The notes beneath the pieces are model-generated. The model ran no database searches. It had not been told where the DNA came from and was given only the letters and a program-made list of their open reading frames with translations. DNA of 64,000 bases, from the NCBI GenBank assembly GCA_951828515.1, contig OX639992.1, forward strand, positions 3,698,217-3,762,216, given 5' to 3'. The DNA is from an uncultured Poribacteria bacterium. GTDB lineage: Bacteria; Poribacteria; WGA-4E; WGA-3G. Numbering within the stretch: the first letter of the stretch is position 1; each line of letters starts with the position of its first letter. The position numbers and the translations under genes were made by a program. This document shows, piece after piece, positions 22,179 through 28,583 of this stretch.

Positions 22179-22259
22179 TCGTCAGTCGTTAGTTAAGAGG
22201 TGGATCTGTTAAATCAAACCCCTCTTTAACTGATAACCGACAACTGTTAACTGTTAACC
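22177..22259. repeat. Heptamer repeat hairpin between convergent genes
   Basis: Reverse heptamers (GTCGTCAGTCGTTA) lead into GTTAAGAGG. After a loop come CCTCTTTAAC and forward heptamers AACTGAT, AACCGAC, AACTGTT, AACTGTT. The whole forms a large stem-loop between convergent genes and could act as a bidirectional terminator. Confidence 0.65.
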
Positions 22260-24221
22260 AATATTACATTTTTCGCGCAATTCTGCCAAGGTATATGTGT
22301 TGATGACTTCGTCTTTTGTCAACCACCCACGACGGGCAACATTCAACCCTGATTGACGGTGCGCGAGTTGCCCGATGCCGTGTGCATCAGTGTTGACTGC
22401 CAATAGCACACCCGCTTTTTTTGCCATACGCACAAATTTCGGGTCAAGGTCCAATCGATTCGGCGAGCCGTTAATTTCCAAAACCGTTTTATTCTCTGCG
22501 GCGGCTTCAATAATCTCCTCAAGATTCAGCGGATACATCGGTCTACGTCCGAGCATTCTCCCTGTCGGATGACCGATGATGTTGACAAACGGATTTTCGA
22601 TCGCACGGACGATGCGCTGCGTCATTTCTGCTTCGGTTAGTGTGAAATGGCTGTGAACACTTGCGACGACAATATCAAGTTGCTCTAAAACTTCATCAGG
22701 ATAATCTAACTCGCCATACCGCCGGATATCTACCTCAGAACCTGCGAGGATTGTGATATCCTCAACCTCTGCATCCAATTCACGAACGCGTGCCACCTGT
22801 TCCAGAAGTCGCTCTCGATCCAAGCCGTTTGCAACCGTAGAGGAAACAGAATGGTCGGTAATAGCGAAGTACTCAAGTCCTTCTGCTCTTGCCGCCGCTA
22901 CCATATCTTGGAGCGTATGTCGTCCGTCACTCGAATTGGTATGCGCGTGTAAGTCGCCTCGTAAATCGGCAAACTCAACGAGGGTTGGCAAAGTGTTCTC
23001 TTTCGCCGCGGCGACTGAGGTGCCGTCCTGTCGAAGTTCAGCCGGAATATAGGAAAGCCCAAGTTTTTCATAAATTCCGACTTCCGTCATATCACCGGCT
23101 TCATGCCAAAAACCCGTCGAGTTCAGAAAACTGTTATCAGGAAGTGCGTCAATGTGCGCGTCCGTCGCTGTTGTCAGAAAGAGGGTCGCTTCGTAGGTAG
23201 CGGCAGTGCACAGATAGACAGATACCGGAAAATCTCTGTCGATATAGAATTGGATCACGGATAGCGTGTCACGTAGGTCGTCTCTCTGTTCACGCTGGCT
23301 TTCTTCAAAATGGCTGTCGGCTATCAGTCGTCGGAAACCGTCGGTTAAGAAGTTTTCTGGTGAAGGAGCACCTTCTTGCTGATTGTGACGCAAGCCGCGT
23401 GCGGGCTTGCGGGACAATGCTGACTGCTGACCGCTATTTTTGCTGTCATATACGTACTGCGTGTGACTGTCCGTTTTGAAAACAATCGGGGTCTGCGAAA
23501 AGTGCTCAAGGAATGATTGTAGCGGGGCAGGCACACTGCCACTTTCAAACCGGAACGCTCCTTCGTCTGCGCATTCAACAATCAACTCTACGCTTTGACA
23601 CACCTCTTCATGCCGCCGTAAATCACCTGTAAATTGGTAGCGTTTTATCCAGTTGTCATTTACCAATGGCATCAGACGCTCGGCAATGTCTTGGGCAGTG
23701 GGTAAAATTCGCCATAGCGGACGTTTGTTCCTTTGTTCTACCTGAAATGCCAAACTCTCAGTTATCATCTGGAGCGTTTTCCGTCCGATGCCCTTCATGC
23801 GTCTCATCTGTCCGCTTTCAATCAATACTTGGAGATCCTCAAGATTTCTGACCCCGAGTTCCTGATAGAATCTTCCAACGGTTTTTACACCGACCCCTCG
23901 GAGATTAAGCAATTCAAGGATCTCTGTTCCCATTTCTGCGGTGAGTTCATCATAGAATTTGCAGCGTCCGGTTTCCAACATTTCAACCGTCTTGTCTTCA
24001 ATGGCTTTCCCAATACCGGGTGTGGCTCTCAGTCTTTTTACTGCCTCCGTGTTGTAACTCGAAGTACTTTGTTGGGGATCTTTGGAGACCAATTCATCGG
24101 GGAATTCTTCAATTATATCGGCTGCCCGTTCATAAATTCGCGCCCGAAAGGTATCATCTCCTCGGATTTGTAGGAGGGATCCGATAGCTTGGAATACAGC
24201 ACTGATCTCACGATTCGTCAT
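22254..24221 (-). CDS. PolX-like protein: HhH, degenerate polymerase palm, active-looking PHP domain
   Basis: A 655-residue homologue of bacterial family X polymerases. Helix-hairpin-helix motifs (TPGIGKAIEDK, LRGVGVKTVGRFY, MKGIGRKTLQ) occupy residues 60-160. The palm should read GSxRRxxExxxDxD, but here it is FTGDLRRHEEVCQSVELIV (about 197-214), so the paired catalytic aspartates are missing. The PHP domain (419-650) keeps its metal ligands: LHAHTN, TDHS, GSEVD, SVHSH, GHPTG and NTDAHG. Polymerase activity is therefore doubtful while phosphoesterase activity is likely. Residues about 262-308 come from an inserted heptamer-type repeat. A repeat A tail provides AAGG 12 nt before the start. 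Confidence 0.88.
   Translation of the reverse strand: MTNREISAVFQAIGSLLQIRGDDTFRARIYERAADIIEEFPDELVSKDPQQSTSSYNTEAVKRLRATPGIGKAIEDKTVEMLETGRCKFYDELTAEMGTEILELLNLRGVGVKTVGRFYQELGVRNLEDLQVLIESGQMRRMKGIGRKTLQMITESLAFQVEQRNKRPLWRILPTAQDIAERLMPLVNDNWIKRYQFTGDLRRHEEVCQSVELIVECADEGAFRFESGSVPAPLQSFLEHFSQTPIVFKTDSHTQYVYDSKNSGQQSALSRKPARGLRHNQQEGAPSPENFLTDGFRRLIADSHFEESQREQRDDLRDTLSVIQFYIDRDFPVSVYLCTAATYEATLFLTTATDAHIDALPDNSFLNSTGFWHEAGDMTEVGIYEKLGLSYIPAELRQDGTSVAAAKENTLPTLVEFADLRGDLHAHTNSSDGRHTLQDMVAAARAEGLEYFAITDHSVSSTVANGLDRERLLEQVARVRELDAEVEDITILAGSEVDIRRYGELDYPDEVLEQLDIVVASVHSHFTLTEAEMTQRIVRAIENPFVNIIGHPTGRMLGRRPMYPLNLEEIIEAAAENKTVLEINGSPNRLDLDPKFVRMAKKAGVLLAVNTDAHGIGQLAHRQSGLNVARRGWLTKDEVINTYTLAELREKCNIG
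23320..23440. repeat. Heptamer-type repeat inserted in frame within polX
   Basis: CTGTCGGCTATCAGTCGTCGG, a central hairpin with GCAAGCC/GGCTTGC, and TGCTGACTGCTGACCGC match the intergenic heptamer arrays. The insert encodes a low-complexity segment rich in Gln, Arg and Ser. Confidence 0.65.
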
Positions 24222-24418: not shown

Positions 24419-25276
24419 CTACGCAAGTTTCCGTTGTGCGACGAAACCGGCGAAAAACCCAACTACCATTTCGCCGACAACGATCAGAATAGATTGATAA
24501 ATAGTAAGGAAATCGACCGCCCCTAATTGAGATTTAAATACATAAAACATTCCGTAAAAGCAGCCAAGTCCACACAATGCGCCGAGACTGCCAAGGAACA
24601 GTCCATGCGTAATAAAAGGAGCGAAGAGATAATGACGGGTCATGCCGAGGAGTTTCATGATGGCTATCTCCTCTGCACGGGCAATCGCTGTTTTGTTGAT
24701 AACAGAACCGATAATGGACCAGATAAGGACAACTGCTATTCCAATGGCGATGAGAGTCGTACGTTCTGAATCGCGTAAACGGTCCTTCAACTGACCCTGT
24801 CCTGTCAAGAGCACATCCTCAATTTCGCTGTGAGCTTTAATGTTCAATACGATCTGCTCTAACGTTTTACGCGTTATCAAGTCTTCATCTACATAAATTT
24901 TGAGGGATGCTGGGAATGGATTTACGCCTCTGGTTTCTGCGAATGCTTCCTTAATGAGGATACCCAAATCTTGGAACTGGGTTTCACCGCGGGTGAGGCT
25001 TTCTGCCTTTGAAGCATAGTTGACTGCGAGCACCTGTCCATTTTTCTCTATTTGGCTCGCCAAGGTGCGTCCGGCTGACGCATCGACAGTATCTTTTAGG
25101 AATGCTATAAGGGTAGGGGCATGGCTTTTAAACTCAGACTGCTGTAATATAAACGAATGGTTCAACAGCAAGGTCGCAAGTAGAGCAGTAATGAAACCGA
25201 TGCCGAAGAAACTCATCACACTTGCACTACCGGCACGGGCTATATGGGATATGGCATTCTTAAGATGATACCGCAT
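24419..25276 (-). CDS. ftsX: Cell-division ABC transporter permease FtsX
   Basis: A 285-residue inner-membrane protein of the FtsEX complex, which couples the divisome to periplasmic murein hydrolases. It has the FtsX layout: a cytoplasmic N-terminal helix, TM1 (about 20-42), an extracytoplasmic domain (45-175) containing KIYVDEDLITRKTLEQI, then three TM helices with the MacB/FtsX-like IGSVINKTAIARAEEIAIMKLLGMT loop. FtsE lies 209 bp upstream on the same strand instead of overlapping as usual; the gap is filled with heptamer repeats. Its partner ATPase appears catalytically altered, so the pair may work in a non-hydrolytic way. Confidence 0.88.
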   Translation of the reverse strand: MRYHLKNAISHIARAGSASVMSFFGIGFITALLATLLLNHSFILQQSEFKSHAPTLIAFLKDTVDASAGRTLASQIEKNGQVLAVNYASKAESLTRGETQFQDLGILIKEAFAETRGVNPFPASLKIYVDEDLITRKTLEQIVLNIKAHSEIEDVLLTGQGQLKDRLRDSERTTLIAIGIAVVLIWSIIGSVINKTAIARAEEIAIMKLLGMTRHYLFAPFITHGLFLGSLGALCGLGCFYGMFYVFKSQLGAVDFLTIYQSILIVVGEMVVGFFAGFVAQRKLA

Positions 25277-25339
25277 TTTTTATAGTTATCGGTTTTGACC
25301 GTCTACTCGTGTCTTTGGATATTGTATCGGGGACGAGTA

Positions 25340-25490
25340 GATGAGTAAAGTTGTCGGTTAAAGAGGATTTTGATCTAACAACTCCACCTCTTGTTTGGTT
25401 GTCAGTTAGTTGTTGGCTGTCGGTTGAAAGAGACTCTTGATGAAACAAAGTACCTCTTAACTGATAACCGCAGACCGATGACCATTCAAT
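25340..25490. repeat. Heptamer repeat hairpins between ftsE and ftsX
   Basis: Two units of the form GTCGGTT-AAAGAGG ... CCTCTT-AACTGATAACCG lie back to back and separate two genes that normally overlap. Confidence 0.6.
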
Positions 25491-26133
25491 GGATACCGCC
25501 ATCCCGTAGTTCGATAATTCGCTTATTACATTTTTCAGCGAGGGTTCGGTCGCTTGTGGAGATGAAGATCGTCATCCCCTGAAAGTTAAGCGCATCAAGA
25601 AGTGCCATCACCTCAAGCGAGAGGCGCAAATCTAAGCCTTCTGTTGGAGCATCCGCAAGGAGTAACAAAGGATTGTTGATAATTGCTCTCGCTATAGCAA
25701 GGCGGCGTCGCTCGTTGCCAGATATTTCTGATGGGAGCGCATTGTGATGGTGATATAACCCCATTTGATTCAGGAGTTTATCGGCATTTTCCTTAATCAA
25801 CTGTGTTGGGGTCCCTATCAGTCGCTGTGGTAGTGCCAAATTTTCTCGAACTGTCTTGTTTTCTAAGAACTTGAAATCTTGAAAGACGAGCCCTATCTTC
25901 TGTCGAAAGTAGGGGAGACTGACTTTATCCAACATCGCAAGTTGTTGTCCAACGACACTCATGTCACCCTCTACTGGGTCTAAATCAGCATATAACAATC
26001 GCTGGAGTGTTGTCTTACCGGAACCACTTGGACCAACGAGAAACACAAATTCGCCGCGCTCCACACGAAAACTCACCTTCTCGAGCACGCTAAGTTCGCC
26101 ATAACTGAAACTGACCTGGTGCAACTGTATCAT
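25486..26133 (-). CDS. ftsE: FtsE-like ABC ATPase lacking Walker B Glu and H-loop His
   Basis: A 215-residue nucleotide-binding subunit of FtsEX. Walker A GPSGSGKTT (residues 34-42) and the Q-loop VFQDF (Q85) are normal. The signature is ISGNERRR instead of LSGGEQQR. Walker B reads LLLADAPTEGLD, so the catalytic glutamate that follows D161 is Ala162. The switch region reads IFISTSDRTL, with Ser194 in place of the usual histidine of ATHD. Both changes are clear in the DNA (GAT GCT CCA; ACA AGC GAC). The protein should bind ATP but hydrolyse it poorly. The gene stands upstream of ftsX on the same strand. Confidence 0.88.
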   Translation of the reverse strand: MIQLHQVSFSYGELSVLEKVSFRVERGEFVFLVGPSGSGKTTLQRLLYADLDPVEGDMSVVGQQLAMLDKVSLPYFRQKIGLVFQDFKFLENKTVRENLALPQRLIGTPTQLIKENADKLLNQMGLYHHHNALPSEISGNERRRLAIARAIINNPLLLLADAPTEGLDLRLSLEVMALLDALNFQGMTIFISTSDRTLAEKCNKRIIELRDGGIH

Positions 26134-26297
26134 TTTTTTAATAGCTGTCGGCTCGAACCCGCAACTCGTGCTTTGCCGTCTTGTATCGGAGTCGAGTTGA
26201 GAGTTCGGGTTTTCGGTTTCCGTCAGTAAGAAGAGTTATTGGAAACCATCGGTTGTCGGCGTATGAGTTATCGGTTATTTCCGTCGACTGCCGATGA
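26134..26297. repeat. Heptamer-related repeats between topA and ftsE
   Basis: GCTGTCGGCT, CCATCGGTTGTCGGCG, GTTATCGGTTATTTCCGTCG and CTGCCGATGACT are degenerate heptamers of both orientations. Confidence 0.5.
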
Positions 26298-28583
26298 CTA
26301 TTTTGTATAGTCACACTCTGCTGTGCGACAGACGAGGCGCGTCGTTACGACTTCACTCCCTTTCGTCTTTTTCGTCTTCTCCACGAGGAATGGCGCGTCG
26401 CATTTCGGACACGGATTTGGCACAGGCTTATCCCACGTCGAGAATTCACATTTCGGATAGTTGCTGCAGCCATAAAAGACTTTACCACGTCGGCTACGGC
26501 GTTCACCCAGGTAGCCATCACAATCGGACTCCGGACAATCAATTCCCATTGGGATCGGCTTGGCGTTTTTGCATTTTGGGTACCCACTACACGACAAAAA
26601 TTTGGCACCGGCACGACTTACCCTGACAACCATGGGTTCACCACACTTGTCACATGGAGTATCAGTTGGTTCTGGTTCCGCTGTAGGAGCGTCATCCGCG
26701 GCTGTTAAACGCTTGATATTCTGACATTCTGGATAATTGGCACAGCCGAGAAACCGTCCATATCTGCCCCATTTGATGATCATATTGCCCCCACACTTTT
26801 CACACTTTTCGTCCGATTGCTCCTCCATCGCCTTTCGAGCTTCATACATCCTATCGGGGGCTTCCTTGAGTGCAGTTTGGAATGCAGGATAAAATTGCGC
26901 TAACGTTTCTACCCACTTAATTTTGCCATCAGCGATGACATCGAGCTGATCTTCCATTTTGGCTGTGAATTCAACGTCAACAATGTTGGGGAATCCATGT
27001 TTCAGGAGTTCGTTAACGAGTCTTCCAACATCTGTAGGCATGAGCCTGCCACGTTCTTTGGTGACATAACCTCTATCCTGAATTGTTGATAGAATAGAGG
27101 CGTAGGTACTGGGACGTCCGATCTCCTTCGCTTCCAACATTTTTACAAGCGTTGCTTCATTGTAACGAGGCGGTGGTTGCGTAAAATGCTGTTTCGGTTC
27201 TAATGTGCGTAGGTTGAGGGTGTCCCCTTCTTTAACGGCGGGTAAGTTGACCTCTTCTTCATCCGATTCACGCGCATCGGTAGCAGGATCGTCTTTACCT
27301 TCCATATAGACGCGCCTGAACCCTTGAAACTTCATCACTGAACCGGTGGCGCGGAAGAGATACGTACCTGCTTGGATGTCAATTGTTGTACCATCAAAAA
27401 TAGCCGGATTCATCTGGCTCGCTATAAACCGCATCCAGATGAGTCCATAAAGTCGAAACTGGTCATTACTCAAATATGGCTTCAAGTCTGCCGGAGTTCG
27501 TAACGGCAAGGTGGGACGGATCGCTTCATGAGCGTCTTGCGCGCCTCTTTTGCTTCGGTAATTAACAGCATGATGGGGTAGATATTCTTCACCAAATGCT
27601 GTTTTGATGTACGCTCGCGCCGCTTGGAGTGCTTCTTGGGCAACGCGCGTTGAATCGGTACGCATGTAGGTGATGAGCCCGATTGAACCCTCGCTGCCCA
27701 TCTCCAGTCCCTCGTAAAGTTGTTGAGCAATCAGCATTGTCCTCTTGGCAACAAAACGGAGTTTCCGAGACGCTTCCTGTTGTAAAGTACTCGTGATAAA
27801 CGGCGGTACAGGTCTCTGTTTCCGCTCTCGTTTTTGAACTTTTTCAACAAGATATGTCTGGGTCTTTGCGTCCGCAGCGAGTTCTTTGGCACGCCCTTCG
27901 TCTATACGGAACCCGTAGTTATTAATTTCGCCCTTCTTTTTCCCAATTTTATGTAGCTTTGCGGGAAAGAGATGCTCAACCTCGGTCGGTGTCAGTGTTG
28001 CTGTGAGCGTCCAATATTCTTCGGGTTTAAACGCCTCAATTTCTGTCTCTCGCTCACAAATAAGTCGTACTGCGACGGATTGAACTCTCCCAGCACTGAG
28101 ACCGGGTTTGACACTACGCCACAAAATAGGGCTAATCTGGTATCCAACGAGTCGGTCCAAAACGCGACGCGCCTGTTGCGCATCGACGAGCGCCATATCA
28201 ATATCGCCAGGTTTTTGGATCGCTTCTAAAATTGCGTTTTTGGTGACTTCGTTGTAGGTGATCCGATAAATTGGCTTTTTCGCCTTTTTGAGCTCCTCAA
28301 AAAGATGCCAACAGATGGCTTCACCTTCGCGATCTGGATCCGCTGCAAGATAAATATTATCAACCTTACGCGCTTCGCTCTGGAGGGATTTCACAACCTT
28401 CCCTTTTCCCCGAATCAAGACATATTTCGGAGCAAAGGCATTCTCAATATCGACACCGAGTTCCTTCGGCGGAAGGTCACGGATATGTCCAACGGAGGAT
28501 TCAACGACGTAATCCCTACCTAAAATCTTTTTGATGGTCTTCGCTTTCGCTGGCGATTCAACAACGACGAGTGACTTTGGCAT
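26298..28583 (-). CDS. topA: DNA topoisomerase I
   Basis: A 761-residue type IA topoisomerase that relaxes negative supercoils. The Toprim domain starts SLVVVESPAKAKTI and contains ADPDREGEAI (81-90). The catalytic tyrosine is Tyr306 in GLITYMRTDSTR. The C-terminus holds four cysteine zinc ribbons (CEKCGG...CANYPEC, CDKCGE...CSGYPKC, CPESDC...CSNYPKC, CPKCDA...CRTAEC), within the usual number for bacterial TopA. GGAATG precedes the ATG. The gene is a housekeeping gene, complete and with no unusual residues. Confidence 0.95.
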   Translation of the reverse strand: MPKSLVVVESPAKAKTIKKILGRDYVVESSVGHIRDLPPKELGVDIENAFAPKYVLIRGKGKVVKSLQSEARKVDNIYLAADPDREGEAICWHLFEELKKAKKPIYRITYNEVTKNAILEAIQKPGDIDMALVDAQQARRVLDRLVGYQISPILWRSVKPGLSAGRVQSVAVRLICERETEIEAFKPEEYWTLTATLTPTEVEHLFPAKLHKIGKKKGEINNYGFRIDEGRAKELAADAKTQTYLVEKVQKRERKQRPVPPFITSTLQQEASRKLRFVAKRTMLIAQQLYEGLEMGSEGSIGLITYMRTDSTRVAQEALQAARAYIKTAFGEEYLPHHAVNYRSKRGAQDAHEAIRPTLPLRTPADLKPYLSNDQFRLYGLIWMRFIASQMNPAIFDGTTIDIQAGTYLFRATGSVMKFQGFRRVYMEGKDDPATDARESDEEEVNLPAVKEGDTLNLRTLEPKQHFTQPPPRYNEATLVKMLEAKEIGRPSTYASILSTIQDRGYVTKERGRLMPTDVGRLVNELLKHGFPNIVDVEFTAKMEDQLDVIADGKIKWVETLAQFYPAFQTALKEAPDRMYEARKAMEEQSDEKCEKCGGNMIIKWGRYGRFLGCANYPECQNIKRLTAADDAPTAEPEPTDTPCDKCGEPMVVRVSRAGAKFLSCSGYPKCKNAKPIPMGIDCPESDCDGYLGERRSRRGKVFYGCSNYPKCEFSTWDKPVPNPCPKCDAPFLVEKTKKTKGSEVVTTRLVCRTAECDYTK

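Follow-up and report, generated by a model that had tools for sequence, protein, structure and literature searches.

A Catalytically Degenerate FtsE Shared by a Family of Candidatus Poribacteria

Results

Organization of the ftsEX Locus

The window (the whole 64,000-nucleotide stretch of DNA analyzed) contains the ftsE gene on the minus strand at 25486..26133, with an ATG at 26133 and an open reading frame that runs from 26133 to 25486 and encodes 215 amino acids; the plus-strand frame over the same interval is riddled with stop codons. The partner gene ftsX (24419..25276, minus strand) lies downstream and encodes a full-length protein of 285 amino acids with an extracellular domain. This protein scores 95.9 bits with the FtsX_Gneg model (TIGR00439) and exceeds the cut-off of FtsX_ECD (PF18075), and its AlphaFold2 model matches FtsX of the solved FtsEX complexes in a Foldseek comparison. 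The two genes are separated by 209 bases (25277-25485), a non-coding stretch in which short repeated phrases (such as gtcggtt and ctgataacc) can be seen by eye, with similar phrases visible upstream of ftsE at about 26180-26300. The conserved upstream neighbor is topA (26298..28583, minus strand), which encodes DNA topoisomerase I and is assigned from its open reading frame, synteny, and a TopA tree. The downstream neighbor, named by sequence inspection, encodes a PolX-like PHP-domain DNA polymerase X (22254..24221, minus strand) and is conserved in the window's own family, termed f1. All of the closest named relatives of the window are metagenome-assembled genomes of Candidatus Poribacteria, the sponge-associated group to which f1 belongs (f1-f10 for families and g1-g21 for genera are labels only).

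Changes in the FtsE Active Site

The AlphaFold2 model of the window FtsE is a confident ABC fold (pLDDT 93.4) with S. pneumoniae FtsE (6z63) as its top structural match (TM 0.94). Walker A (residues 34-42, GPSGSGKTT; 26008..26034, minus strand) and the Q-loop (Gln-85 in VFQDFKF; 25879..25881, minus strand) are kept, as a sequence-only reading of this DNA had reported. The same reading held that the Walker B glutamate and the H-loop histidine are replaced and that the signature is altered (SGNERRR), and both statements are borne out by translation and alignment of the minus-strand gene. The Walker B and D-loop region (residues 161-168, DAPTEGLD; 25630..25653, minus strand), in a stretch reading LLLLADAPTEGLD, keeps Asp-161 and Asp-168, and the position of the catalytic glutamate is taken by Ala-162 (25648-25650, minus strand). 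A new acid, Glu-165 (25639-25641, minus strand), sits where the D-loop begins, three residues past the lost glutamate. Position 194 of the H-loop (25552..25554, minus strand) has a serine for the histidine in the sequence TIFISTSDR. The signature motif (residues 137-141; 25711..25725, minus strand) is ISGNE in the context EISGNERRR, where the canonical form is LSGGE, so that Asn-140 (25714-25716, minus strand) stands in place of the second signature glycine. In the alignment Ala-162, Asn-140, and Ser-194 correspond to Glu-163, Gly-141, and His-195 of E. coli FtsE.

Distribution of the Substitutions

The phylum sample comprises 84 genomes. Orthologues were obtained from 53 of its 58 f1 members and from 17 genomes of other families, a count that leaves out one further orthologue outside f1 (G011). 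The 77 comparison FtsE sequences are these 17 from other poribacterial families and 60 from other phyla, the latter being the best tblastn relatives of the window protein and not an unbiased sample. Alignment of FtsE from related genomes, which the sequence-only reading had proposed as a check, finds Glu-162, His-194, and Gly-140 all absent in 53/53 f1 orthologues from three genera and all present in the 77 non-f1 sequences, none of which lacks the three together. As counted in this alignment, the split (53/53 versus 0/77) is far beyond chance. Position 162 is alanine in 36 f1 sequences, glycine in one, and glutamine in 16 (Ala in g1 with one Gly, Ala in g2, Gln in g3), compared with glutamate in 77/77 canonical sequences. 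Position 194 is serine in 28, threonine in 12, and alanine in 13 compared with histidine in 77/77, and position 140 is asparagine in 53/53 (codons AAC in 31 and AAT in 22) compared with glycine in 77/77. The acid at position 165 is glutamate in 35/35 g1 sequences and glutamate or aspartate in 16/16 of g3; g2 has glycine or alanine, and canonical FtsE has glycine in 77/77.

Because the substitutions are common to the f1 relatives and canonical residues are confined to other families, the catalytic loss is placed by this comparison on the stem of f1, and the possibility that the window carries a local decayed copy falls away. A true loss of ftsEX in the five f1 genomes that gave no orthologue is unsupported; topA is also unmatched in them, which makes a gap in these assemblies at the locus the most likely cause.

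Orthology of the Window FtsE

The gene order accD-topA-ftsE-ftsX of f1 recurs in the f3 genome G015, there with a canonical FtsE, and topA-ftsE with a canonical FtsE is found in f3 genus g8 and in f4. Within f1, ftsX adjoins ftsE in 51/53 loci, and the remaining two have FtsE at a contig end. The f1 FtsE proteins form one clade (support 100/100), whose long stem measures 0.6 changes per column and which is nested within poribacterial FtsE (100/99). The best model for the window protein is TIGR02673 (NCBIfam FtsE) at 230 bits, which falls short of the equivalog cut-off of 264.85 bits, and the next is LolD at 155 bits. LolD-like paralogues themselves reach 213 bits on TIGR02673, so the assignment as FtsE rests on the tree and synteny and not on the score. 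An exporter ATPase of the LolD or MacB type was considered and rejected, given that the tree places FtsE apart, the best model is FtsE, and the partner is FtsX.

The window's genome is a single contig of 5.85 Mb with an estimated completeness of 95%, and a search of it for a second FtsE or FtsX found none. The next-best FtsE matches in this genome are 38% identical, fall outside FtsE in the tree, and carry the canonical glutamate and histidine, and there is one FtsX extracellular domain. By both position and phylogeny the window gene is orthologous to canonical FtsE, and it belongs to the sole FtsEX of the genome. The suggestion that this is not the housekeeping FtsEX is unsupported, in view of the missing second copy, the topA-ftsE-ftsX order, and the nesting within poribacterial FtsE. 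Descent, synteny, and partner identify the protein as an FtsE, and it lacks the catalytic features defining FtsE as an ATPase. The neighborhood differs in some relatives: in both genomes of family f2 the PolX-like gene comes immediately after topA, in the f3 genome G016 topA is followed by another gene, and ftsE and ftsX were not found in either case. It seems that ftsEX was lost at the same locus in these relatives within the order. The TopA tree does not resolve the branching order of f1, f2, and f3.

Selection on ftsE and Its ATP Site

Pairwise dN/dS values (NG86; rough, with dS medians near 1) for ftsE are 0.066 in g1 and 0.085 in g3 compared with 0.030 in one canonical genus, and the value for ftsX in g1 is 0.115. 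No internal stops occur in ftsE of the 53 f1 species. The gene is under purifying selection in f1 (dN/dS about 0.07), and neutral decay is excluded. Its dN/dS is two to three times that of canonical ftsE, and the role of f1 FtsE may on this account have shrunk or shifted. In canonical pairs the conservation of FtsE exceeds that of TopA (94% versus 86% and 79% versus 47%), whereas in the comparison of f1 with f3 it falls below that of TopA (51% versus 68%), which locates the rate change on the f1 side. The f1 FtsX proteins score about 73-121 bits compared with 133-184 bits for full-length FtsX outside f1.

Tyr-11, Gly-34, Gly-37, Gly-39, Lys-40, Thr-42, Gln-85, Ser-138, Asp-161, and Asp-168 are each present in 53/53 f1 sequences with mixed synonymous codons, a set that spans the A-loop tyrosine, Walker A, the Q-loop, the signature serine, the Walker B aspartate, and the D-loop aspartate. 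The serine at position 194 is drawn from both codon families, and position 139, the first signature glycine, is glycine in the window protein and unconstrained across f1. Since the invariant residues are encoded by varied synonymous codons, selection appears to act on ATP binding in f1 FtsE, with a switch position (194) that need only be small and a signature asparagine that is fixed.

Division Machinery in f1

Genes for Amidase_3, FtsZ, and FtsW-type proteins are kept across f1, and the window's genome has three Amidase_3 and three M23 matches, FtsZ, one FtsW-type protein, and FtsA in its dcw cluster, so that a peptidoglycan divisome is available for FtsEX. The FtsZ C-terminal peptide (DWEIPAFLR) is canonical-looking; in E. 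coli this peptide is the docking site of FtsE (PMC7343993). Two of the M23 peptidase genes are near identical (G000:C1:2925674-2925973 and 5216491-5216790) and are possible candidates for FtsX partners. The full-length M23 gene (L174) encodes an N-terminal membrane anchor and a coiled-coil-like stretch, and the other copy lies near a sigma-FtsZ-DnaE fusion gene on the opposite strand.

This fusion is a 1366-amino acid open reading frame outside the window (G000:C1:2919966-2924066, plus strand; locus L167:1467-5567) and represents an extra FtsZ copy. It combines ECF sigma-70 regions with a complete FtsZ domain (312 bits, which exceeds the cut-off) and a DnaE (DNA polymerase III α) part extending to about residue 800 of DnaE. 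Open frames joining FtsZ and DnaE (1349-1758 amino acids) recur in many genomes across g1 and g3 and are confined to f1; FtsZ is also present there in normal form, as is DnaE (about 1185 amino acids). An additional FtsZ-like gene, encoding about 400-430 amino acids, occurs in many f1 genomes and matches only positions ~9-205 of the FtsZ model (for example G081:C1:602129-602734 and G083:C1:1233663-1234265). Most f1 genomes have two to four FtsZ matches, with one each in G059 and G077, and nearly all genomes outside f1 have one, with two each in G018 and G024.

Discussion

FtsEX belongs to the type VII ABC superfamily. The sequence-only reading left two options for the window proteins, an FtsEX that works as an ATP-binding switch without turnover or one that is not the housekeeping FtsEX. 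The second is unsupported, and the first is the best-supported reading, as the ATP-binding residues are invariant and the catalytic ones are gone. It is probable that f1 FtsE is an ATP-binding and catalytically crippled protein that, together with FtsX, serves as a scaffold or a slowly acting switch. We infer that turnover has been lost and that ATP binding and a role in septal peptidoglycan hydrolysis have been retained. Mg-ATP would be bound at the FtsE dimer interface with very slow or no hydrolysis, and FtsEX would act at the division site without cycling, either as a scaffold that works through binding alone or as a slow switch, recruiting or holding a periplasmic peptidoglycan hydrolase or activator at the septum.

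In E. coli FtsE hydrogen bonds to ATP are made by Gly-40 to Thr-43, Gln-86, Ser-139, Gly-141, and His-195 (PMC11491553), and in f1 the counterparts of Gly-141 and His-195 are replaced and the rest are kept. As Asn-140 takes the place of an ATP-bonding glycine, ATP-driven dimer closure may be altered besides hydrolysis. The E163Q substitution holds E. coli FtsE in the ATP-bound state and impairs division (PMC11491553), and genus g3 naturally bears this laboratory ATP-trapping change. In E. coli, FtsE(D162N)X acts through FtsA to block septal synthesis, but this mutant complex still aids cell separation via EnvC, in the presence of NlpD, once its contact with FtsA is lost (PMC7343993). Because the hydrolysis-dead complex of E. 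coli blocks through FtsA, the f1 lineage has by analogy probably changed its FtsEX-FtsA coupling too, and the FtsA brake on FtsEX would be changed or lost. A wider proposal, which we advance tentatively, is that f1 exchanged the ATP-driven FtsEX cycle for a non-hydrolyzing, ATP-locked or ATP-gated FtsEX within a broader rebuilding of the division machinery, of which the extra FtsZ proteins including the ECF sigma-FtsZ-DnaE fusion would be part.

It is unlikely that f1 FtsE and FtsX have left division altogether to form, with some other partner, a membrane complex that senses ATP or has a structural role. The long stem branch of FtsE, its drop below TopA in conservation between f1 and its sister, the lower FtsX scores, and the missing ftsEX at the locus in a related family are consistent with such a change, but the FtsX extracellular domain and fold are kept, the FtsZ C-terminal peptide looks canonical, and the division and amidase genes are intact. 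Hydrolysis by other chemistry, with Glu-165 or Asn-140 supporting the attacking water or the γ-phosphate, is quite unlikely. Glu-165, fixed in g1 and replaced at most by aspartate in g3, might partly substitute as a base, and the invariance of Asn-140 points the same way; however, g2 with glycine or alanine at 165 still lacks Glu-162 and His-194, and both catalytic residues were lost together with position 194 drifting among serine, threonine, and alanine. Slow decay of an ftsEX that is dispensable in the order, with its catalytic residues eroding, would accord with the replacement of ftsEX by other genes after topA in f2 and one f3 genome. It is strongly disfavored and very improbable given the dN/dS far below 1, the open frames in 53 species, the invariant ATP site, and the fixed Asn-140. 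A sequencing or assembly error is refuted by 53 separate agreeing genomes and a mistaken paralogue by the canonical residues of the LolD-like paralogues in the same genome, which fall far outside FtsE in the tree, leaving the two together a negligible chance.

The f1 FtsE can be compared with several known systems. The window FtsE resembles the E. coli, S. pneumoniae, and M. tuberculosis proteins in the ftsE-ftsX order, the ATP-binding residues, and an FtsX with an extracellular domain, and shares the fold of S. pneumoniae FtsE; it differs from them in lacking the Walker B glutamate, the H-loop histidine, and the second signature glycine and in scoring below the NCBIfam FtsE cut-off. A parallel also exists with the engineered ATPase mutants FtsE(E163Q)X and FtsE(D162N)X, as g3 has the same glutamate-to-glutamine change with the ATP site kept and would be expected to hold ATP. 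In contrast to these mutants the f1 change is natural, fixed across the family, and joined by loss of the histidine and the signature glycine, and the lineage lives with its change where the E. coli mutants impair or block division. In heterodimeric or asymmetric ABC exporters (for example TAP, CFTR, BSEP, and TM287/288), the degenerate sites have similarly lost the catalytic glutamate and kept ATP binding, but they are paired with a live site, whereas FtsE is a homodimer and both sites would be dead. In the open-access papers searched we found no natural FtsE pseudoenzyme without catalytic residues, a result that does not extend to papers outside that set. Why FtsEX must hydrolyze and not just bind ATP is described as not clear in E. 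coli (PMC7343993). A clade of more than 50 species that keeps FtsEX under selection without the catalytic residues amounts to evolution's own experiment on this question, in which binding alone could suffice when another part of the divisome changes, and comparison with the canonical sister families should point to that part. The comparison suggests that f1 Poribacteria use a division switch, one that normally consumes ATP, as a component that only binds it.
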